Below, one piece after another: positions 7,076 through 41,802 of a DNA stretch of 42,023 nucleotides; the first letter of the stretch is position 1, and each line of letters opens with the position of its first letter. The DNA lies in contig SHLQ01000007.1 in NCBI GenBank assembly GCA_004282895.1, positions 1 to 42,023 on the forward strand. The letters are read 5' to 3'. Made by a program: the position numbers and the translations under genes. Source of the stretch: Acidimicrobiales bacterium (GTDB taxonomy: Bacteria > Actinomycetota > Acidimicrobiia > Acidimicrobiales > SHLQ01). The notes under the pieces are model-generated. The model saw nothing but the letters and a program-made list of their open reading frames with translations, did no database searches and was not told where the DNA came from.

Positions 7076-7426
7076 ATGGCCCAGCTCGCTCAGTCAGACG
7101 AATCCTCCCCGCTCGATTCCCTACCTCCGGAGGTGGTCGACGCGCTGCCCGAAGACATCGTCGAACAGTTAAAAAGCGGGGCGATCGACCGGATCCCGAC
7201 GGAAACACTCGAGGAGTTGCGACCGGATCTCGCCGACAAGGTCCCCGACAGCCTCGCGGAGACAGCCGCGTCGAATCCCGGGTTGACGGCTGTGCTCATC
7301 ATCATTGGCCTGCTGAGCCTGGCCGGAGCGGCGTGGGGATTTGTGAAGGGCTTCCTGAAGTCCGCGATTATTCTCGGGTTGATCGCGGCACTCGCCTGGT
7401 TCTTCTTCTTCCGGGATGTCAGCTAA
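7076..7426 (+). CDS. Small membrane protein of unknown function
   Basis: I do not recognise this 116-residue protein. The first 65 residues are acidic and amphipathic, with repeated leucine/proline steps (SLPPEVVDALPEDIVEQL, then a second DRIPTETLEELRPDLADKVPDSL), suggesting two similar helical hairpins. Two transmembrane helices follow at about 69-88 and 93-112, and the protein ends four residues after the second. The ATG sits directly after the inverted repeat at 7061-7075 with no Shine-Dalgarno at normal distance. The stop codon overlaps the stop of the convergent CAP-RTX gene by a few bases. Divergence from the BON-OmpA gene over a shared palindrome suggests common control. Confidence 0.75.
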   Translation: MAQLAQSDESSPLDSLPPEVVDALPEDIVEQLKSGAIDRIPTETLEELRPDLADKVPDSLAETAASNPGLTAVLIIIGLLSLAGAAWGFVKGFLKSAIILGLIAALAWFFFFRDVS

Positions 7427-8781
7427 CGCTCACACGTGCGCAACGGCTCGTTGGTGGACGGCAAACCGGGACGGTGGGTCCGGCAGAGATCTGAGCCGGT
7501 GTTCCCACTGATGACGTCGCGTTGTGGTCCACCGATCAGCTCGTCGTTGCCCTGGTTGCCAGACAAACGATCTCGCCCGGTCTGACCGTCGAGTCGATCA
7601 TCACCAGCACCGCCACGAATCGTGTCGTGGCCTCGTCCACCAAGTACCACGTCGCGGCCACCGCCGGCGTGGACGACGTCGTTGCCGTTGCCGGCACAGA
7701 TGATGTCGTTGCCGCCACCGCCGTAGATCACGTCGTTGCCACCCAAAGCAACGATGACGTCGTCTCCTGGGGTGCCCTGGATGGTCTCACTGAGGTTCGA
7801 ACCGACAATGGTGGCGACCTGAGAGCGGCATTTCGGTGTGTGGTCCTCAAATGATCCGCCCGCCGGAGCGGCGGCATCGAACGCAACGACCTGGTACCGG
7901 TGACTCACAGGCCCGCTGCTGGTGGTGATTCCGGACACCGCGACCTCGTAGACGGTGTCGAAACCGGCCACGGGATCGGCGTTCAGCGGCTCCCAACCAA
8001 GGGTTGCGTCGCCGAAGCCGGTGGCAACCGGCAGCAGCTTGACGTTCACGGGCTTGCCGTTGCGTGTCATCGAGACGGTGGCGTTCGAGAAGTCCGCGCC
8101 GTCCGTGTGGGAGAGCGACCAACGGGGAAACACCATGTCGTTGGGCGTGTAGCCATGGGGCGGCCAGGAGACCCAGGTCGGGCCCGGTTGTTCGGCGCCG
8201 ATGCCATCGATGACGCTGATAGCGCTGGCCCACGACGTGTTGCCGACGCCAACACGGTCCAGGCGTGAGTACATCAGCCAACGTCGATGTCCCAAGTCCG
8301 AATTGGAGGCGCCAGGATCCTCCATCTGGGCCACGATGCCGCGAGGACCAGCCACACCAAGGGTCAGGTTGCTGAGACCGGCAGACGCCGCGCCGCTCGC
8401 CGAATAGCACGACCAATCGGAAGCCGGGTAGTGGTCCAACGCGGCCTCGGCGTGCATCATGACCGCAGCCGCCTGCGCGGCGGTGGAGCTCGTGGCATCG
8501 AGCGAAACCGCGTCGAGTCCGGACATGGCCCGGAACCAGTTGATCGAGCTCACGGTCGCCGTTTTGAACTGGGCACTCGTCTGCCCACCGTCACACACGT
8601 CCGCGTCACCGGTCCAGCGATGATGAATCCGCGTAGCGTCCTCGACCGAGGAGAGGTAGCTGGCCAGCACGGCCTGGCGGTCGGTCGTGTCGATCCCGCC
8701 CGCTGACGAAGCGGTTGCGGGGTTGCTCACGACGGCCAACATGGCCGCGGTGAGGATGGTGATGACTATCGGAATTCGCAA
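7423..8781 (-). CDS. Secreted CAP-domain protein with RTX calcium-binding tail
   Basis: About 452 residues, with a signal peptide (LRIPIVITILTAAMLAVVSNPATASS) and a CAP/SCP-like domain including HAEAALDHYP and the DLGHRRWLMY motif. A beta-rich middle follows, then a C-terminal RTX block (about the last 135 residues) of GGxGxDxI nonapeptides that fold as a calcium-stabilised beta-roll. CAP proteins are secreted and bind lipids or act on extracellular partners; the exact activity is unknown. The TTG at 8781 is chosen because it lies 7 bases after the M23-RTX stop with TGAGGT just upstream; an in-frame ATG at 8817 would overlap that gene and add 12 residues. It is likely co-transcribed with the M23-RTX gene. 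Four cysteines flank and mark the RTX block. Confidence 0.82.
   Translation of the reverse strand: MRIPIVITILTAAMLAVVSNPATASSAGGIDTTDRQAVLASYLSSVEDATRIHHRWTGDADVCDGGQTSAQFKTATVSSINWFRAMSGLDAVSLDATSSTAAQAAAVMMHAEAALDHYPASDWSCYSASGAASAGLSNLTLGVAGPRGIVAQMEDPGASNSDLGHRRWLMYSRLDRVGVGNTSWASAISVIDGIGAEQPGPTWVSWPPHGYTPNDMVFPRWSLSHTDGADFSNATVSMTRNGKPVNVKLLPVATGFGDATLGWEPLNADPVAGFDTVYEVAVSGITTSSGPVSHRYQVVAFDAAAPAGGSFEDHTPKCRSQVATIVGSNLSETIQGTPGDDVIVALGGNDVIYGGGGNDIICAGNGNDVVHAGGGRDVVLGGRGHDTIRGGAGDDRLDGQTGRDRLSGNQGNDELIGGPQRDVISGNTGSDLCRTHRPGLPSTNEPLRTCER
7490..7800 (-). repeat. RTX nonapeptide-coding repeats (CAP protein)
   Basis: Degenerate 27-base units encode GGxGxDxIx repeats in the CAP-RTX protein. 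They are protein-coding repeats, not a CRISPR array. Confidence 0.8.
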
Positions 8782-8788
8782 CCCAACC

Positions 8789-10252
8789 TCAGTATTCGCA
8801 CTTGATGACGGTCGCATCCCCCGGCTCGGCGCACAGATCGGTGCCTGCGCCTCCGTCCAAGGGATTTGAGCCATCGCCCCCAAAGAGTCGGTCGCGCCCC
8901 GCTCCACCAAACACCGCATCATTGCCGGTTCCGCCGACGAGGCGGTCGTTGCCGCCTGAGCCTCGGACCGTGTCGTGACCGACGCCTCCGAGAATGACGT
9001 CGGGGCCGGTACCACCCGTTGCGTCGTCATGCCCTGCGCCGCCCGATACCCGATCGCGGCCTGCGCCTCCGTCGAGGATGTCCGCGCCACGTCGACCCCA
9101 GAGTCGATCGTTGCCTTCGCCTCCGGAAATCGTGTCGTTGCCGACATCACCGTCGATGAGGTCGTTGCCGGGACCGCCGTCTATTGCGTCGTTGCCCGCC
9201 CCTCCGCAGATCACGTCGTCGCCGGCACCGGCGGCGATTTCGTCGGCGCCGTCGGTGCCGATCAGAACGTCGGGTCCATCGGTGCCGAACGTGGAGGTAG
9301 CGACGTACCCAAGGCAGGTGTCGAGGCCGACGACGGAGGCCGGGTCGTAGCCAACGGGGTCTGACCACGGCGTGAACACGGTGCCGAATTGCGTCCGCAT
9401 TCGCACGATGTAGGTCCATCCATCAGTGACGGCAAGTTTGCGAATCGACTCGGTTGTGACCGCAAGGGGTGTCACCAGGTTGCCTTCGCCGGTCACGGCT
9501 GTGAGTTCCACCTCGAAGCTGGTTCCAAGTGCGTCGGCGGGCGCAGCGACTCCGAAGTGTCCGACGCCTGCGAATACCACGGGTGGGCTACTGGTCAGAG
9601 CCACCCCGTCGAGGCAGGCGAAGTCTTCGTTCGTGATGATGGATCCGTAGGGCACATCGCGCCAATCCGTGTAGCCGAGGACATCGGGGTATTGGACGAC
9701 TTCGCCGTCGATACAGGACAGCAATGGGCCAAACGGGGTGCGGGTGCCGCGCGGGAAGTGTTCGTCGTAGTGCAGATGGACGGAACGAGCACTACCGGTA
9801 TTGCCCGCGGTGCCAACGATCTGGCCTGTCTGGATGATGTCGCCGTCGCGTACGAGCACCTCATCGAGGTGGAGGTAACGGGAGGATGTTCCGTCGGAAT
9901 GGCCGATCTCGACAAACAGCCCGGCACCGCCACGGCACCAGCTGGCACGACAGTCGAGCTCGGTTTGGAGGACCACGCCGGCGCCAGCCGCATGGATCGG
10001 TGTGCCGAGTTCCATTCCGATATCGACGGCCGGTGTGCGGTGGTGGTTCGTGCAGCCTCCGTGAGCGGAGGGATTACGTTCCGTACACCACACCTCAAAG
10101 CTGCCGATCCACGGTGTGGCAACCGGCTGGGTGTTCGCGATCGGCTCGGCCGGAGGATCGTCCTGTCCCGAAGCCGCGGACGGCATCAGAAGCGTCGCCA
10201 ACAACACGGTTATGGACGCGAGCGCGTACATACGTGCAGATGCAGAGGGCAT
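8789..10252 (-). CDS. Secreted M23 (LytM-like) peptidase with RTX tail
   Basis: The 487-residue protein has a signal peptide (ALASITVLLATLLMPSAASG, ending near residue 29) and an M23-type domain at about 45-200. That domain holds NHHRTPAVDIG with the zinc His/Asp, SRYLHLDEV, and the HLHYDEHF HxH motif, as in peptidoglycan-cleaving or LytM scaffold proteins. A beta-sandwich-like region follows (about 230-310), then an RTX calcium-binding block from about residue 312 to the end. The ATG at 10252 has AAAGGA 5 bases upstream; the longer frame is not supported. The first metal site is HRTPAVD rather than the commoner HxGxD, so activity is not assured. The CAP-RTX gene begins within 8 bases of its stop. 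Confidence 0.87.
   Translation of the reverse strand: MPSASARMYALASITVLLATLLMPSAASGQDDPPAEPIANTQPVATPWIGSFEVWCTERNPSAHGGCTNHHRTPAVDIGMELGTPIHAAGAGVVLQTELDCRASWCRGGAGLFVEIGHSDGTSSRYLHLDEVLVRDGDIIQTGQIVGTAGNTGSARSVHLHYDEHFPRGTRTPFGPLLSCIDGEVVQYPDVLGYTDWRDVPYGSIITNEDFACLDGVALTSSPPVVFAGVGHFGVAAPADALGTSFEVELTAVTGEGNLVTPLAVTTESIRKLAVTDGWTYIVRMRTQFGTVFTPWSDPVGYDPASVVGLDTCLGYVATSTFGTDGPDVLIGTDGADEIAAGAGDDVICGGAGNDAIDGGPGNDLIDGDVGNDTISGGEGNDRLWGRRGADILDGGAGRDRVSGGAGHDDATGGTGPDVILGGVGHDTVRGSGGNDRLVGGTGNDAVFGGAGRDRLFGGDGSNPLDGGAGTDLCAEPGDATVIKCEY
8840..9290 (-). repeat. RTX nonapeptide-coding repeats (M23 protein)
   Basis: About fifteen degenerate 27-base units encode GGxGxDxIx repeats. The segment is bounded by a Cys upstream and by a DLC...C pair at the very C-terminus, as in the other two RTX proteins of the window. 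Confidence 0.8.
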
Positions 10253-10436
10253 GTGATCCTTTAGGCGGCGTAACAGGACGGCAACAATAGTTACACATCC
10301 GTCATGTCTTGTCGTTGCTGGACGCGGAGTTTGTGGCCACAGCCGGTTGGCATGAAAGGAAATTCTCGACATAGGCCCGTATCATCGACAAGTCGGGGAT
10401 TTTCATTGAGAAAAACTGGTGGCCGAAAGGGAGACC

Positions 10437-23571: not shown

Positions 23572-25617
23572 TCAGGGAACCAGCTCGAACTCGCAGTTCA
23601 CGAGGTTCTCGAATTCGGCGCAGAAGTCGGTGCCGATCTTCCCGTTTGCCGAGTCGAATCCGCCCCCGCCGAAGAGTCGGTCGTTGCCACCTCCGCCGGA
23701 AACGAAGTCGGGTCCGGATTGGCCGTCGATCCGGTCACGGCCGTTTCCGCCGATGAGCGTGTCGCGGCCGCCGTTGCCCGAGATTCGGTCGTTGTTTCGT
23801 CCCCCTACCACAACGTCGTCGCCGGGTCCGCCTCGGGCTACGTCGCGTCCGGGACCACCGTCGATGAAGTCAAGACCGGGTCCGCCATAGACACGGTCGT
23901 TGCCATCACCGCCGAACAGGCGATCATCACCATCGCCTCCGTTGATGAGGTCGTTTCCTCCACCTCCGCAGATCGTGTCATTGCCACTGCCGCCTTCGAG
24001 AATGTCCGGAGCCTCCGACCCGATCATGACGTCGTCGCCATCGGTGCCCACTACTCCGGCGATCGTCACCGCGAGGCCATCACAGGTGCCGGTGGGCGGC
24101 AGGGAATTGCTGACGATGTAGATCCATCCATCGCGTTTGTTCAATATGTAGAGCTCTCCATAGGGCCCTTGCCCGAAACGCACATCGGCTCGGCCCGAAC
24201 CGTCGTATCGAAGCGAATCGTTGATGACCTCACCCATGGTTGCGCGAGGTTTCACCGGCGTGGTCGCGTCACCGTCGTGGTCGAAGGCAATGGACGAAAC
24301 GTACGTAGGTGCCTGCGTAAGATCTTCGGGGTGATCGCGGTCCGGTACCGCCGGATCCAGCTCGGTGACGGCTCCGAGAATGTCAACTACCGACGAGTGG
24401 TAGATCGTGCCGCTCCTCGCGAAGTCTGCATAAAAGTAGTGCCCAGACAACACGGAGCCGTTGTCGATGGCGAACCCTCCGGCGATCGCCCGACCGGAGT
24501 TTGTCGACCCTCGAACACCATCGTGACCTAGTTGCGCAGCCGGATAGATGAAGCCGTTGAGGGCATCATCGACGGGCAGCGGCGCAACTCCGTCGATGAG
24601 TGTGCCGCCCGGCAGGTGCACGAAGGTTCCCTCGCGCATGCTCCACCCGTAGTTTCCGCCCCGCTGAATCACATTGACTTCTTCGACGTTGTCGCGACCC
24701 GGCTCGGCTGCGATGAGCCGACTCGTTCCTGCGTCATCCACGAAGGCGAGATGATGTGGGTTCCGATGCCCGATGGACCACGCTTCGTTGATCATTGTCG
24801 CGTCATCGACGAACGGGTTGCTTTCGGGAACCGAATACGGCGAGGTATCGCGTTGGCGGGGATCGATTCGCAGAATCTTGCCGAGCGCATCGTTGTTCTG
24901 CCCGCCTCCTGCAGTCGCGGAGTTCACACTGCCGTCGCCGTGGGCGACGTACAGCAGCCCGTAGCCGTCGTCGTCCGGCTCGGCGAATGGGTCGAACGCG
25001 ATCTGCTTGATCGGGTGGTCGTAGACCGGCATACCAACCCGGAAGACCTGGCGATACGAAGCCGGATCGACCTCGTCGCGATTGTGGTCATAGGTCCACT
25101 CGATTACGACACTGTCGGCCGGGATTGGAGTCGGCACATCGCTGATGTAGTCGTCCGGGTTGGGAGCTGCCGGGCGGGTCTCCATGACGGACGTGTAGAA
25201 GAGTCCGTTCTCGGCGAATGCAGGATGAAAGGCCAGTCCTCGAAGCCCGCCGTGGACTCGGTTTGTGTTGTCGAGCGTTCGGCTGGTCGCCGACGCGATT
25301 GCATCCTTGACGTTCAGGAACGGCCGCAAGGTCGGTTGGTTGTCGACGGTCGTGATCTCCCAAATGTCACCATCCCACTCCTCGACTACGAAGACCCGTT
25401 CTCCGGTCGAGGCCATCGCGTTCAGCCGCGGGCGCCCCATCGACGAGTCAGGAATCTCGACCCAGGGAACAACCTCGAGCACGACCCCCGTGTCGACGAG
25501 TGGAGCAGCGACGGGATTGTCCGCCCACACCGCAGCTGGGGCCGACGCGAACACGAGCGACACGATGGCCAAAACGAGAAACAGTCCGATGTGGTTTCTG
25601 CGCGGGTCCGCCTCCAT
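23572..25617 (-). CDS. Secreted PQQ-type sugar dehydrogenase with RTX tail
   Basis: The 681-residue protein has a signal peptide (GLFLVLAIVSLVFASAPAAVWA, ending near residue 32) and a glucose/sorbosone dehydrogenase (GSDH) beta-propeller at about 55-500. That propeller has GGLRGLAFHPAF with the catalytic-type His, EAWSIGHRNPHHLAF and GGNYGWSMREGT. The last 170 residues are an RTX calcium-binding block. GSDH enzymes oxidise sugars with PQQ outside the membrane; several homologues have other or unknown substrates, and no pqq genes are in the window. Four cysteines at fixed points of the RTX block are shared with the other two RTX proteins. The gene is alone, ending 79 bases from the TPR gene. 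Confidence 0.87.
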   Translation of the reverse strand: MEADPRRNHIGLFLVLAIVSLVFASAPAAVWADNPVAAPLVDTGVVLEVVPWVEIPDSSMGRPRLNAMASTGERVFVVEEWDGDIWEITTVDNQPTLRPFLNVKDAIASATSRTLDNTNRVHGGLRGLAFHPAFAENGLFYTSVMETRPAAPNPDDYISDVPTPIPADSVVIEWTYDHNRDEVDPASYRQVFRVGMPVYDHPIKQIAFDPFAEPDDDGYGLLYVAHGDGSVNSATAGGGQNNDALGKILRIDPRQRDTSPYSVPESNPFVDDATMINEAWSIGHRNPHHLAFVDDAGTSRLIAAEPGRDNVEEVNVIQRGGNYGWSMREGTFVHLPGGTLIDGVAPLPVDDALNGFIYPAAQLGHDGVRGSTNSGRAIAGGFAIDNGSVLSGHYFYADFARSGTIYHSSVVDILGAVTELDPAVPDRDHPEDLTQAPTYVSSIAFDHDGDATTPVKPRATMGEVINDSLRYDGSGRADVRFGQGPYGELYILNKRDGWIYIVSNSLPPTGTCDGLAVTIAGVVGTDGDDVMIGSEAPDILEGGSGNDTICGGGGNDLINGGDGDDRLFGGDGNDRVYGGPGLDFIDGGPGRDVARGGPGDDVVVGGRNNDRISGNGGRDTLIGGNGRDRIDGQSGPDFVSGGGGNDRLFGGGGFDSANGKIGTDFCAEFENLVNCEFELVP
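23630..24060 (-). repeat. RTX nonapeptide-coding repeats (sugar dehydrogenase)
   Basis: Degenerate 27-base units encode GGxGxDxIx repeats in the C-terminal part of the dehydrogenase. They are coding repeats. Confidence 0.8.
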
Positions 25618-35667: not shown

Positions 35668-37362
35668 ATGAGCAGTCGCTCAGCCCAGAAGCCATCATCC
35701 ATGCCGGTCGAAAAGTACCAGGCATTCCCCGCCGTCGATCTTCCCGATCGCACGTGGCCGTCCAACACCATCACGAAGGCGCCGCTGTGGTGCAGCGTTG
35801 ATCTTCGCGATGGCAACCAGGCCCTCATCGAACCGATGGACAGCGAGCGCAAGTGGAAGATGTTCACCAAGCTCGTCGAAGCGGGTTTCAAGGAGATCGA
35901 AGTTGGCTTTCCGTCCGCGTCGGACACCGACTTCCAGTTCGTGCGCGAAATCATCGAGCAGGGCGCGATTCCGGACGACGTGACCATCCAGGTGCTCACC
36001 CAGTGTCGGCCCGAGCTCATCAAACGAACGTATGAGGCGATCGCTGGCGCCAAGCAGGCGATCGTGCACATCTACAACAGCACCTCAACGCTGCAACGTG
36101 AGGTGGTCTTCGGACTCGATGAGGATGGGATCGTCGACATTGCCTTGAAGGGTGCGGCGCTGTGCCGCGAGCTCGAATCCACCATCCCGGAAACGAAGGT
36201 GCACTACGAGTATTCGCCCGAGTCGTTCACGGGCACGGAACTGCCGTTCGCGAAACGTATCTGTGACGAAGTGATCGACATCCTCGACCCGACCGACAAG
36301 ACCGTCATCATCAACCTGCCGGCCACGGTCGAGATGAGCACCGCCAACATCTACGGCGACATGATCGAATGGATGCACCGCAATCTGGCGCGTCGGGACG
36401 AGATCGTCCTGAGCCTGCACCCCCACAACGATCGGGGCACCGGTGTCGCGGCCGCCGAGTTCGGCGTGATGGCTGGCGCCGATCGGGTCGAGGGCACCTT
36501 GTTCGGCAACGGTGAACGAACCGGCAACGTCGACGTCATCAACATCGCGATGAACCTGTTCAGCCAGGGGGTCGACCCGGAACTCGACATCTCGGATATC
36601 AACGAGCTTCGCCGCACCGCCGAGTACTGCAATCAGCTGCCGGTCCACCCCCGGCATCCCTATGTTGGCGACCTGGTCTACACCGCATTCAGTGGGTCAC
36701 ATCAGGACGCCATCAAGAAGGGCTTCGATGCGCTCGAGAAAAACGAATCGTCGCTGTTCGAGGTGCCATACATCCCCATCGATCCCGAGGACGTCGGTCG
36801 CTCCTACGAGGACGTGATCCGGGTCAACAGCCAGTCGGGCAAGGGCGGCGTGTCCTACCTGCTCAAGACGGAGCACAACATCGACCTGCCCCGACGGATG
36901 CAGATCGAGTTCACCCGCGTCATTCAGGACATCACCGATCGCACCGGTAAGGAAATGACCGCCGGCAACATCTATGACGAATTCGATGCCACGTACCTTG
37001 GCCTCGACTCGCCCTTCCTGTTGAACGGCTATGAGTCCGCTCAGAACACCCGCGGTCAGGATCTAACGCTGCTAACGGCTCGGATTACGCGCGATGGCGA
37101 GGCACATGTAGTGCAGGGCACAGGTTCTGGTGCGCTCTCCGCGTTCGTCTCCGGTCTGACCGAACTCACCGATCTCGACATCCGAGTACTTGACTACCAT
37201 GAGCACTCGAAGGGGTCCGGCAAGGACGCCACGGCGGTGACGTTCATCGAGACGCAGATCAATGGCGTGGAGCTGTGGGGTTGCGGCATGCACTCCGACA
37301 TCACGACGTCGTCGATGCGGGCGATCGTGTCGGCGCTGAACCGATTCAGCGCACTGGCCTAG
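35668..37362 (+). CDS. leuA: 2-isopropylmalate synthase
   Basis: LeuA condenses acetyl-CoA with 2-oxoisovalerate in the first committed step of leucine synthesis, with leucine as feedback inhibitor. The 564-residue protein has the DRE-TIM metallolyase barrel (about 1-390) with DLRDGNQALIEPMD, the metal-binding HPHNDRGTG and FGNGERTGNVDV, then the C-terminal LeuA dimerisation/regulatory domain (about 430-564) with TGSGALSAFVSGL. Length and sequence match the long actinobacterial type. ATG at 35668 has AGGAG at 35657-35661. Expression is likely controlled by the attenuator just upstream. The gene is convergent with an HD-GYP gene, with 7 bases between. Confidence 0.97.
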   Translation: MSSRSAQKPSSMPVEKYQAFPAVDLPDRTWPSNTITKAPLWCSVDLRDGNQALIEPMDSERKWKMFTKLVEAGFKEIEVGFPSASDTDFQFVREIIEQGAIPDDVTIQVLTQCRPELIKRTYEAIAGAKQAIVHIYNSTSTLQREVVFGLDEDGIVDIALKGAALCRELESTIPETKVHYEYSPESFTGTELPFAKRICDEVIDILDPTDKTVIINLPATVEMSTANIYGDMIEWMHRNLARRDEIVLSLHPHNDRGTGVAAAEFGVMAGADRVEGTLFGNGERTGNVDVINIAMNLFSQGVDPELDISDINELRRTAEYCNQLPVHPRHPYVGDLVYTAFSGSHQDAIKKGFDALEKNESSLFEVPYIPIDPEDVGRSYEDVIRVNSQSGKGGVSYLLKTEHNIDLPRRMQIEFTRVIQDITDRTGKEMTAGNIYDEFDATYLGLDSPFLLNGYESAQNTRGQDLTLLTARITRDGEAHVVQGTGSGALSAFVSGLTELTDLDIRVLDYHEHSKGSGKDATAVTFIETQINGVELWGCGMHSDITTSSMRAIVSALNRFSALA

Positions 37363-37369
37363 CTGTTCG

Positions 37370-39259
37370 TCAGCGAACGAGCGGTCGGGTCTCTGAGGAC
37401 ACGACTTTCGAGCCATTGAGGAGATCGAGTCGCATCTCGTAGACGCCCAACGCGAAGTTGCCGACGTCGAGTGTGACGCCAACCGCGGTTGCGCCGGATG
37501 CGACCGGTACCTCTTGCACCAGCACGTCGTCGACGTAGACCGCGAGCGTGTCGCCGCTGACGTTGACGTAGATGTCGTCGACGAGCACGGCCTGCAACCG
37601 GTAGTTGAAGCTCAGTACCTGTTTGGACGGGTCCCGGGGTGGCAGCGAGGTCGTCGGCTCCGCGACGGGCTCCGTCGTCGGCGTGATGGTGGTGCTCGTC
37701 GTCGATGTGGTCGTCGTCGATGTGGTGGTGGTCGTTTCCACCGCGTCATCGACAGTCTCTGACGTTGCGTCCTCGACCACGACTTCCTCGAACGCAATCG
37801 CGGGCGGAGAGTCCTCTGGGACGGAGACGCCAGCGCTCAGCAGTCCAGCGAGAATGGAACCTCCAACGACGGTCGACGTGGCAATACCACTCAAGACGGT
37901 CGAGTCCGCGGCTACCGACAGGCCGGCGAAGGTCACGGCCCACCCGCGAACATGCGCGAGTTTGGCGTTTCCAATGCGCAGAAATGCGGCCACGACGGTC
38001 GGGTCGAATTGCGCGCCGGCACCCGCAACCAGTTCCTCGCGCGCGAAATCGATGGAGTGAGGCTTCTTGTAGGACCGGGCATGGGTCATCACATCGAACG
38101 CATCCGCAACCGCCACGATACGAGCGATCAGAGGGATCTGGTCACCGGAGAGCTGATTCGGATAGCCGGTTCCATCCCAGTTCTCGTGGTGATATTCCGC
38201 GGCGTCGTACATCGACGGGCCCAACCAGGATTCGAGCGGTTCGAGATAGCTGCGGGCATTGTTGGGATGAAGCCGAAGGATGGTCCATTGGGCTTCGGTT
38301 GGTTCATCGGGCGTTTGCAGGACCGCAGCCGGAACGTCGAGCTTTCCCATGTCATGCAGAAGGGCGGACCAGCTCAGTTGGGCCAATTCGGCTTCACTGA
38401 ACCCGAGTTCTTCGCCGATCAACGTCGAGTAGGCGCGAACTCGCTCGATGTGTCCCCGCGTCAATCGTTCGTGGCGGTTCATGTCGGACAGCAACTGCAT
38501 GAGGTACTCAGCCTGCTCGTCGACGCTCAACGCCTTGTCGGTGGAGATCCTTGACCGGGCGGATCCCGCTCGGAGAGCGGAGCGGAATCGGCTGTCCATT
38601 TCCTCGTTGAAGTTGCTGGCCATCGAATACAGGCGGGTGTACACGAGCGCTCGTTCCACGAGGATGCTGAGGGCTTTTGCCACCACGATGGCGATGACCA
38701 CAACCGTCAGTACCCAGATGCCAAAGTCGAGTCTGTCGTCGAAGGGTTTGCCGTAGCGAAGCAGCAGCATGGCAATGATGAACGAACCGACCGCGGGGAC
38801 GAGGAAGGCGGTCAGTTTCAGGAGGCGGTCTGCGTACTTCCGCCTTGTGGCCGGCGCGGCGACGAAGTTGTCTCCCAGCAGACGGGTGCGCTCGACTTGT
38901 TCCATCGGCGCTGCGATGGGCTCGTCGGCTTCTCCAGCCGCTGCGGCGATCGACCACACGGACTGTGCCGATGGTCGATCATCGGGTTGCTCTGGATCCG
39001 GATCCTCTTCGGTTGCGTGTTCGCTCACGTCTGTCTCTTCGATTTCGTCTGCCACTTCGGTCTCGTCTGCCACTTCGGTCTCGTCTGCTTCTTCGGCAAA
39101 ATCGAGGTCGTCCCAAAGCGTGGAATCACCGGAGCCGTCGTCCTTGAGATCAACCGGAGTGACTGAAGGGGTCTCGACGTCGAAGTCGGTGAACTCGAGC
39201 GCGACCTGGTCGATGCCTGCGGTCTCGGGGGTCTGGGGTTCGAGTTCGGCGTCGTCCAT
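37370..39259 (-). CDS. Transmembrane HD-GYP protein with external C-terminal domain (copy A)
   Basis: The 629-residue protein has an acidic cytoplasmic N-terminus (1-145, including a 6-residue repeat of DETEVA type), transmembrane helices at about 148-167 and 181-200, an HD-GYP domain (about 250-430) and a third helix at about 455-476. A Thr-rich stalk (about 509-535) and a beta-rich C-terminal domain (about 548-629) follow. The HD-GYP motifs are complete: HD at 302-303 (LLHDMGKLDVP) and HHENWDGTGYP at 357-367, so it can be expected to hydrolyse cyclic di-GMP. Three helices place the stalk and last domain outside the cell. The stop of copy B lies 5 bases upstream of its ATG, so they form one transcript. 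Confidence 0.9.
   Translation of the reverse strand: MDDAELEPQTPETAGIDQVALEFTDFDVETPSVTPVDLKDDGSGDSTLWDDLDFAEEADETEVADETEVADEIEETDVSEHATEEDPDPEQPDDRPSAQSVWSIAAAAGEADEPIAAPMEQVERTRLLGDNFVAAPATRRKYADRLLKLTAFLVPAVGSFIIAMLLLRYGKPFDDRLDFGIWVLTVVVIAIVVAKALSILVERALVYTRLYSMASNFNEEMDSRFRSALRAGSARSRISTDKALSVDEQAEYLMQLLSDMNRHERLTRGHIERVRAYSTLIGEELGFSEAELAQLSWSALLHDMGKLDVPAAVLQTPDEPTEAQWTILRLHPNNARSYLEPLESWLGPSMYDAAEYHHENWDGTGYPNQLSGDQIPLIARIVAVADAFDVMTHARSYKKPHSIDFAREELVAGAGAQFDPTVVAAFLRIGNAKLAHVRGWAVTFAGLSVAADSTVLSGIATSTVVGGSILAGLLSAGVSVPEDSPPAIAFEEVVVEDATSETVDDAVETTTTTSTTTTSTTSTTITPTTEPVAEPTTSLPPRDPSKQVLSFNYRLQAVLVDDIYVNVSGDTLAVYVDDVLVQEVPVASGATAVGVTLDVGNFALGVYEMRLDLLNGSKVVSSETRPLVR
39043..39096 (-). 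repeat. Three 18-base tandem repeats inside the HD-GYP gene (copy A)
   Basis: Units at 39043-39060, 39061-39078 and 39079-39096 share a TCGTCTGCCACTTCGG core with few changes. They encode 6-residue acidic repeats in the cytoplasmic tail and may vary in number among strains. Confidence 0.7.
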
Positions 39260-39264
39260 GGCTG

Positions 39265-40731
39265 CTACCGGAAGATCGGCAACGACTCGCTGGATACGAG
39301 TTCACCGTTGTCGAAGAGGTCGAAGCGGACATTGTGGGCGCCGGGCGCGAGGTCGGTTGCGTCGATAATCACCGAGAGGGCTCGCTGGCCGTCCTCAAGT
39401 GCGATGACGTGGTTGGGAATGTTGTCGACGAAGACCTGCAGGGTGTCTGCGGAAACCGTTGTCTCGATTCCGTCGACTTCGATCGTCTTGATCTGGTACG
39501 CAATGCTGAGCAGTTCGATTGGCTTCGCCGTGGTCGTGGTCGTGGTTGTCGCGATCGTCGTGGTCGTGGTCGTGGGCCGCGGGTTCGTCGAGGGAGTTGC
39601 AGGAGCGGCTGTTGTGGTGGTCGTCGTTGTGGTTACTGCTTCAAACGCGATCACGGGTGGAGGAGCAACCGTCGGTGGCGGAATGTCGGCGACAACCACA
39701 CCAATGGCCACGGAACCAACGACTGCCGCGGTCTGCGCGCCGACGGCAACCAAGTTGGACTCTGCTGCGACGCCGATGCCGGCGACCGACGTCGACCAAC
39801 CCCGGATTGCGCCAAGATCAGCGTCACCGATGCCGATGAACACGGCCACAAGTTCCGGGTCGAAATGGCTGCCGGCGCCCTGTTGGAGGACCTCTCGGGC
39901 TTCGCTGAGAGAGATGGTGTCGCGATAGCTGCGAGGGTGGGTCATGACATCGAATGCATCGGCGATCGCGATGATGCGGCCGAACAACGGGATGTCGACG
40001 CCAAGGAATCCGCGCGGGTAGCCGGTTCCGTCCCAGCGTTCGTGGTGGGCGAGGGGACCGTGAAGGACCTCCGGACCGAGCCACGTCTCGAGCGGCTCCA
40101 CATACTTGCGGCTGTTGAGAGGATGACGCTTCAGGACGGCCCACTGTGCGGTGGTCGGCTTGACTGGCGTCGAGAGAATGGAGGGAGGAACGTCGAGCTT
40201 GCCGACGTCGTGAAGAAGGGCCGAGAACGACAACGACTTCAGACGATCCTCGTCGAATCCGAGCTCGCGGCCGATGAGCACGCTGTACGCCCGGACTCGT
40301 TCGCTGTGGCCCCGGGTCAGTCGATCGTGGCCGTTGATCCGATGTAGGAGGGCAAGTACGTGTTCGAACTGTTCCTGGGTGCTGAGCTGTACCCGTCCGG
40401 TCTTCAACATCTTCTTGGGGTTGCCGGCCCGAAGCGTGGTGCGGAAACGGTCATGGATCTCTTCGTCGAAGTTCGATGCAGATTCGTACAGACGCGTCAA
40501 GGGGAGGATCCGTTGGATCAACATGCTGACGATGAAGCTGGCGATGATCGACAACAGCACGGCGGACAGGACCCAGGTGAAATAGTCGCGGTTGTCGTCG
40601 AACGGCTTCGCGTTGTGCAAAACAAGGACCGCGACGACGAAACCGGCGAACGCCGGAATCAGAAATGCAATGACCTTGACGATGCGAGCCGCGCGATGAC
40701 GCTTCTCGATCGGGCTATTTTCCGTTGTCAC
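39265..40731 (-). CDS. Transmembrane HD-GYP protein with external C-terminal domain (copy B)
   Basis: The 488-residue protein has the same layout as copy A without the long acidic N-terminus: helices at about 17-38 and 51-73, an HD-GYP domain (about 120-300), a third helix at about 328-348, a Thr-rich stalk (about 367-402) and a beta-rich C-terminal domain (403-488). HD at 174-175 ([11 protein letters not shown]) and [11 protein letters not shown] at 229-239 are intact. Both copies end with a closely similar SSExxPxxR stretch, showing duplication. GTG at 40731 has GAGGA about 9 bases upstream. Active c-di-GMP phosphodiesterase activity is inferred. Confidence 0.9.
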
Positions 40732-40848: not shown

Positions 40849-40960
40849 GCTGAGCTGGCCCAACCGCGGTTGCGCCCGAAAAGCCTGGTGTCTGCATTCC
40901 CGCAGCACCTTGACGAAGAACGTGGGCCCAGCCCGGGTCACAGACGCCGAAAGTTTCCTT

Positions 40961-41329
40961 ATGCCAACAATCAATCAGCTGGTCCGCAAGGGCCGCGAAT
41001 CCAAGCGCCGCAAGGAAGCCACGCCGGCGCTCAAAGGTGCTCCGCAGCGCCGCGGTGTGTGCACCCGTGTGTACACCACGACACCAAAGAAGCCGAACTC
41101 CGCGCTTCGCAAGGTCTGTCGTGTGCGATTGACCTCCGGTATTGAGGTCACGGCGTACATTCCCGGTGAGGGCCACAACCTCCAGGAGCACAGCATCGTG
41201 CTCGTACGTGGTGGTCGTGTGAAGGACCTTCCCGGTGTTCGTTACAAGGTCATCCGCGGCACGCTCGATACCTCCGGTGTTCGTGATCGCAAGCAAGCCC
41301 GTAGCCGCTACGGCGCCAAGAAGGACTAG
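40961..41329 (+). CDS. rpsL: 30S ribosomal protein S12
   Basis: S12 of 122 residues, a decoding-centre protein of the small subunit. [24 protein letters not shown] and [15 protein letters not shown] are fully conserved. Lys43 and Lys88, where streptomycin-resistance changes occur, are the wild-type residues; Asp89, a methylthiolation site, is present. ATG at 40961 fixes the standard MPTINQL start; a longer frame upstream is not real. It leads the rpsL-rpsG-fusA string, with rpsG beginning 5 bases after its stop. Confidence 0.98.
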
Positions 41330-41334
41330 GTCGC

Positions 41335-41802
41335 ATGCGCAAGAACGCTGCTCCCCGTCGGGAGCTTTCCCCCGATCCGGTCTATGACTCGATCCTTGTA
41401 ACCCAGTTCGTCAACAAGGTGCTTCAGCGCGGCAAGCGTGCCACCGCCGAACGCATCATGTACGAAGCGATGGATATCGTCGGCGAGAAGACCGGCGGCG
41501 AAGCGTTGTCGGTACTCAAGCGTGCGGTGGACAACACCCGTCCGCAGCTCGAGGTCCGCAGCCGTCGTGTCGGTGGAGCCACGTATCAGGTTCCGGTCGA
41601 GGTTCGTCCTCGCCGGGCCAACACGTTGGCGATCCGCTGGTTGGTCAACAATGCGCGCAAGCGTCGCGAGCGCAGCATGTCCCAACGTATGGCGAATGAG
41701 ATCCTTGATGCATCGAACGCCGTTGGCGCCTCGGTCAAACAACGCGAGGATCTGCACAAGATGGCGGACGCGAACAAGGCCTTTGCGCACTACCGCTGGT
41801 AG
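41335..41802 (+). CDS. rpsG: 30S ribosomal protein S7
   Basis: S7 of 155 residues, a primary 16S rRNA-binding protein of the head of the 30S subunit. The N-terminus [19 protein letters not shown], the [13 protein letters not shown] segment and the [10 protein letters not shown] end are diagnostic. It follows rpsL by 5 bases. The gap of 147 bases to fusA contains a possible promoter and hairpin. Confidence 0.98.

Follow-up and report, generated by a model that had tools for sequence, protein, structure and literature searches.

Two genes that follow each other on the minus strand of an Acidimicrobiales contig, encoding the membrane HD-GYP proteins P2 and P1, raise the question of whether a phosphodiesterase inside the cell can have its putative input domain at the C-terminus and on the outside, and how such a protein might work. 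The window, by which we mean the whole stretch of DNA analysed, is one complete contig of 42,023 nucleotides from an assembly of 3.48 Mb in 316 contigs, estimated to be 85% complete. According to a preliminary description, the two adjacent genes each encode two N-terminal helices and an HD-GYP domain with a complete HHExWDGTGYP motif, and indeed both open reading frames are found at this place, P2 followed by P1 after a gap of five bases (Table 1), and the motif is present in both products (HHENWDGTGYP in P1). The proteins are 45% identical over 497 residues, and full-length homologues of P2 occur in six relatives within the genus. The extension preceding TM1 in P1, which P2 lacks, holds 45 D/E residues versus 9 K/R residues and contains ADETEVADETEVADEIEETD repeats that are found in P1 only. 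The SSExxPxxR end that the two proteins were said to have in common is present in both and nearly kept in the ortholog from genome G006 (STETTPIIR), but it is missing from the other four aligned rows and is hence not a general signature.

Table 1. Position of P2, P1, their parts and their neighbours in the window.
Feature	Position	Strand	Residues	Details
leuA-like gene (2-isopropylmalate synthase by sequence)	35668..37362	+		Convergent neighbour, conserved in seven genus members
P1, membrane HD-GYP protein	37370..39259	-	629 aa	ORF, ATG start
P1 acidic repetitive N-terminal extension	38855..39259	-	about 1-135	Sequence
P1 TM1	38753..38821	-	147-169	dG -1.6
P1 TM2	38657..38725	-	179-201	dG -2.3
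P1 HD-GYP domain	37994..38473	-	263-422	HD_5; ligands conserved
P1 putative TM3	37820..37885	-	459-480	dG +1.6
P1 Thr-rich stalk	37634..37744	-	506-542	Sequence
P1 C-terminal Ig/FN3-like beta domain (predicted)	37373..37633	-		Profile match 37376-37633; aligned with P2
P2, membrane HD-GYP protein	39265..40731	-	488 aa	ORF, GTG start
P2 TM1	40618..40686	-	16-38	dG -1.4; AlphaFold helix, pLDDT about 90
P2 TM2	40516..40584	-	50-72	dG -2.6; AlphaFold helix; followed by family linker motif
P2 HD-GYP domain	39850..40335	-	133-294	HD_5, AlphaFold, Foldseek, metal ligands
P2 putative TM3	39685..39753	-	327-349	dG +1.4, hydropathy 1.9
P2 Thr-rich stalk	39499..39642	-	364-411	Sequence
P2 C-terminal Ig/FN3-like beta domain (predicted)	39268..39519	-		Structure prediction; profile match 39271-39528
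rpsL and rpsG	40946..41802	+		Divergent neighbours, conserved in seven genus members

Both proteins match HD_5 (Pfam PF13487), P2 with an E-value of 5.4e-35 and P1 with one of 1.2e-30, and with 121 and 107 bits they lie above the curated cut-off of 27.2. The P2 domain is furthermore modelled by AlphaFold with a pLDDT above 95 over most residues, and a Foldseek search of the PDB returns DvhD, the best match, as well as PmGH and PA4781 at E-values of 3e-10 to 7e-10. When P1 and P2 are aligned to PmGH with the residues listed by Bellini et al. (PMC4159591) as a guide, seven of the eight metal ligands (H189, H221, D222, H250, H276, H277 and D305) are found to be kept in both, as are the HD and HHExxDGxGYP motifs and Lys225 and Arg314 (PmGH numbering), and the position of Asp183 is Asp in P2, Glu in P1 and either of the two across the family. 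Across 40 aligned relatives there is little or no variation at the seven ligands, Lys225, Tyr285 and Arg314, and HD motif and His ligands are intact in every one of them. The eighth ligand position, E185, is Leu in both proteins and L, M, R, K, A, S or T in the family, so that P1 and P2 lack the ligand characteristic of the E/D-T-G (trinuclear) subgroup, which leaves their membership of the superfamily unaffected. In PmGH the E185A mutant is impaired but still active, and enzymes without the E185 carboxylate have been proposed to be binuclear (Bellini et al., PMC4159591); judged by this behaviour and by the Leu that they have in this position, P1 and P2 are expected to be active phosphodiesterases and are probably binuclear. 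His135 of P2 (40327-40329), seven residues before the equivalent of H189, is found without exception in the 40 aligned relatives, corresponds to a Lys in PmGH and might be a substitute for the missing ligand. Hydrolysis of c-di-GMP is strongly suggested by the sequences, and the 20 GGDEF and 14 EAL places of the host genome point to a c-di-GMP network in this organism; the domains could also act on another cyclic dinucleotide.

Whether the C-terminal part is outside depends on the third helix. TM1 and TM2 are strong in both proteins, with dG values of -1.4 to -2.6 kcal/mol (hydropathies of 2.4 and 2.9 in P1), whereas the Ala/Val-rich TM3 is weaker and indeed marginal at +1.4 kcal/mol in P2 and +1.6 in P1, these values being approximate and in agreement with plain hydropathy. 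TM3 is better than the best segment of the HD-GYP domain of the same protein (+2.8 in P2 and +3.7 in P1), and in the AlphaFold model of P2, where residues 318-401 have a pLDDT below 50, it is not resolved. The third helix that the preliminary description saw in both proteins is therefore present, albeit only as a marginal one that AlphaFold does not resolve, and P1 and P2 by themselves would leave it putative. The case is firmer across the family, since a hydrophobic segment is found in the TM3 region of all 66 complete relatives and beats every segment of the HD-GYP domain in each of them, and since this segment lies about 100 residues past the HHE motif, a distance that is nearly fixed in most members. 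Furthermore, K+R per 15 residues falls from 1.42 before TM3 to 0.44 after it in the 66 relatives and D+E rises from 0.67 to 1.99, as expected for a C-terminus outside, and K+R amounts to 3.3% of the tails versus 12% of the enzyme domains. The charge bias, the occurrence of TM3 in all 66 relatives and its absence from 18 controls (see below), the surface-type domains that follow it and the low K+R content of the tails give strong though indirect support to a cytoplasmic HD-GYP domain and a C-terminus outside, as had been proposed. The order had also been called unusual, which agrees with the finding that a C-terminal helix or tail past the HD-GYP domain occurs in none of 18 other actinobacterial HD-GYP proteins taken as controls, whose chains stop at a median of 73 residues beyond the motif.

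The C-terminal beta domain comprises 84 residues and is confidently modelled in P2, with a pLDDT of 91-94 in the full chain and 89 when predicted alone, in which case an eight-stranded sandwich with a pTM of 0.76 is predicted. Its structural matches are the N-terminal part of chitinase A, the Epf adhesin and FN3 domains. The best Foldseek match has an E-value of 0.017, and VIA-align gives a Z of 8.2 and an rmsd of 1.8 Å over 71 residues for the N-terminal part of chitinase A, many rows being tied, and a Z near 8.2 may reflect merely a common arrangement. As modelled, the domain is thus a generic Ig/FN3-like sandwich; a known cytoplasmic fold, which would speak against an outside location, is not what the structure searches returned. 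A sensor fold of known type, for example Cache or PAS, was likewise considered and rejected, as these searches gave the generic sandwich only, and no ligand pocket was found in the 84 residues. In Pfam the domain stays below every curated cut-off, with sub-threshold E-set/Ig matches only (TcfC, Glucodextran_B), and in 298 genomes of the order its profile matches solely the C-terminus of these HD-GYP proteins of this genus. Kinship with the Big_9 tail of another family member from the same genome was also rejected, a profile search giving no match. The domain could be an adhesin or a spacer instead of a sensor.

A search for the architecture in other Acidimicrobiia led to a much larger family, including giant ectodomains of which the preliminary description makes no mention, and P1 and P2 are small members of this Acidimicrobiia-centred and apparently undescribed family with the order 2TM-linker-HD-GYP-TM-ectodomain. 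Profile A1, which covers the TM hairpin and the linker after TM2, matches P2 at 8.5e-36 and P1 at 9.6e-21, P2 being part of the profile and P1 not, and has matches in 34 of 296 sampled genomes of the class, in 21 of 396 of the phylum and at seven places in the host genome. With a five-row N-terminal alignment, to which diverged linkers such as those of P1 and P2 are invisible, the FPDxAPSRF linker was sought in 84,980 species; of the 158 loci confirmed in this way the best 80 are titled Actinomycetota, nearly all of them Acidimicrobiia. Conservation is high in the linker and the TM hairpin, where P, L, F and R positions are invariant, and P1 and P2, the linker of whose clade has diverged from FPDxAPSRF, conform to the family pattern of a third helix about 100 residues after HHE and a Thr/Ser/Pro stalk thereafter. 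The ectodomains found after TM3 include cadherin, Big_9, lamin-tail, FG-GAP, NHL, PKD, CshA, C-type lectin, pentapeptide and PASTA domains, and what lies outside varies from no more than a stalk to giant chains like those of adhesins, the longest chain having 2507 residues; several members, for instance L049, have a low-complexity tail only, without any Pfam domain. PASTA, the wall-sensing domain of PknB-type kinases, ends two members of the same HD-GYP family (L171 and L175). Another two (L177 and L178; G662:C210 and G591:C24) keep the hairpin, a TM3-like segment and a Pro/Ser/Thr tail and have lost the HD and GYP motifs; they are likely pseudo-enzymes or receptors, which suggests that catalysis has been dropped in some lineages. 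The earlier statement that no named family with this order was known agrees with both domain and literature searches, and no account of an HD-GYP protein with a C-terminal outside domain was found in the literature searched, the architecture review of Galperin and Chou 2021 being outside the comparison. The enzyme type itself is known, and the domain order appears to be new for HD-GYP proteins insofar as no description of it was found.

The architecture, the conserved active site, the exchange of ectodomains and the lineage distribution of the family are observed, and P1 and P2 may well be single-chain transmembrane c-di-GMP phosphodiesterases with a C-terminal ectodomain, acting as outside-in receptors or adhesins coupled to local hydrolysis. 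TM1 and TM2 would then form an N-terminal hairpin from which the conserved linker leads to the catalytically complete cytoplasmic HD-GYP domain, and TM3 would take the flexible Thr-rich stalk and the Ig/FN3-like domain into the envelope, where the ectodomain would engage wall, matrix or another surface and thereby send a signal via TM3 to the adjoining end of the HD-GYP domain, altering the local hydrolysis of c-di-GMP. The sensing of a ligand or contact and the direction of the signal we infer only weakly, and a stalk rich in Thr could serve only poorly as a lever between ectodomain and enzyme. Two considerations favour the outside-in direction: the family retains its catalytic residues, which the inside-out receptors DvhD and LapD do not, and receptors usually combine an unchanging output with input domains that are swapped. 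The main rival, which seems rather doubtful, is that the C-terminal part is a plain surface adhesin or wall tether coupled by place alone to an HD-GYP domain that is constitutive or internally regulated. Cadherin, Big_9, CshA and lectin domains are indeed adhesin-like rather than ligand-sensor folds, the stalks are flexible and members with a bare low-complexity tail (L049) could hardly sense, but the linker and the TM hairpin are conserved as if transmitting and the distance to TM3 is almost fixed. An inside-out receptor, in which c-di-GMP at the HD-GYP domain changes exposure, shedding or adhesion of the ectodomain as in LapD and DvhD, has a precedent in the best Foldseek match, since DvhD is a solved HD-GYP receptor controlling adhesins (PMC13090378), and would fit the joining of HD-GYP to adhesin-like domains and the existence of the degenerate L177 and L178. 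It is nonetheless unlikely, since DvhD no longer has its HD motif or metal ligands and is without c-di-GMP hydrolysis (PMC13090378), while in P1, P2 and each of the 40 relatives in the alignment both HD motif and His ligands are intact. A TM3 that does not cross the membrane at all, with the C-terminal part serving as a regulatory domain in the cytoplasm, would be in line with the marginal dG and the low AlphaFold confidence, but it is hard to reconcile with the charge bias, the universal TM3, the surface-type domains following it and the Thr/Ser/Pro stalks poor in K+R, and it must be regarded as highly improbable.

Compatible with any of these mechanisms is the proposal that P1 and P2 form an obligatory heterodimer, which is favoured by the closeness and identity of the two genes and by the reported occurrence of HD-GYP domains in dimeric assemblies (PMC13090378). 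The order and strands of leuA, the HD-GYP gene, rpsL and rpsG are kept in all seven genus members, but six of these have a single HD-GYP gene at this locus and only the present genome has two, and among loci of at least 6 kb tandem family members occur at just 2 of 96. In the tree the genus clade, supported 100/100, contains P1, P2 and the G006 gene as a single group whose branching is not resolved, and together with the single gene of the six relatives this indicates either a lineage-specific duplication or an older duplication lost elsewhere. P1 and P2 are paralogues that have diverged and occupy a single conserved locus, and the heterodimer suggested in the preliminary description is left without comparative support and, as an obligatory one, is improbable. 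Tandem pairs are seen at L044 and L052, with partners unequal in C-terminal length (1740 and 704 aa; 1077 and 817 aa). Elsewhere in the window, two overlapping minus-strand open reading frames in different frames (7423-9150 and 8789-10372) are both rich in RTX calcium-binding repeats, the latter also having a Peptidase_M23 domain, and may be one frameshift-split gene or two genes, and a third (23572-25617, minus strand) encodes a glucose/sorbosone dehydrogenase domain followed by RTX repeats and is apparently a secreted enzyme.

To our knowledge it is poorly known how surface contact changes c-di-GMP in monoderm bacteria. If the outside-in reading is true, the same protein may both touch the surroundings and lower c-di-GMP, and with an adhesin-type ectodomain and a phosphodiesterase in one chain the link from contact to c-di-GMP would be directly testable, the exchanged ectodomains over a fixed enzyme making up a natural set of chimaeras. 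Acidimicrobiia are an abundant environmental class, and almost no work on c-di-GMP in them was found in the literature searched. It is possible, and we put it forward tentatively, that the family consists of class-specific one-chain adhesion receptors whose giant cadherin, lectin or PASTA ectodomains turn contact into a local fall of c-di-GMP, P1 and P2 being minimal members.

With PmGH (4mcw) and PA4781 (4r8z), P1 and P2 have in common the fold, seven of the eight metal ligands, HD, K225 and GYP, but owing to the Leu at E185 they belong by letter to neither the E/D-T-G nor the Tyr/Phe subgroup of Bellini et al., and they differ furthermore by a putative input domain that is C-terminal and outside, by the N-terminal 2TM hairpin and by the invariant His135. 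DvhD has a periplasmic dCache domain followed by PAS (PMC13090378), and P1 and P2 resemble it and LapD as membrane c-di-GMP proteins tied to large surface adhesins, in the case of DvhD even with HD-GYP. The adhesin and protease of DvhD are however separate proteins, whereas enzyme and ectodomain form one chain in P1 and P2, and the catalytically dead cytoplasmic domain typical of LapD and DvhD is not found in them, their catalytic residues being complete. In PknB-type PASTA kinases the cytoplasmic output comes first, then a TM helix and then the extracellular C-terminal domain. RsgI anti-sigma factors are likewise built from a cytoplasmic output, a TM helix and an extracellular C-terminal domain (PMC12203970). 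The family is like both in this order, two members even having PASTA, but its output is a predicted c-di-GMP phosphodiesterase and not a kinase or an anti-sigma factor. Finally, the giant members resemble large cadherin or Big repeat adhesins in the composition of their ectodomains, but it is a three-helix HD-GYP module that anchors them, where such adhesins use a sortase signal or an outer-membrane retention module.
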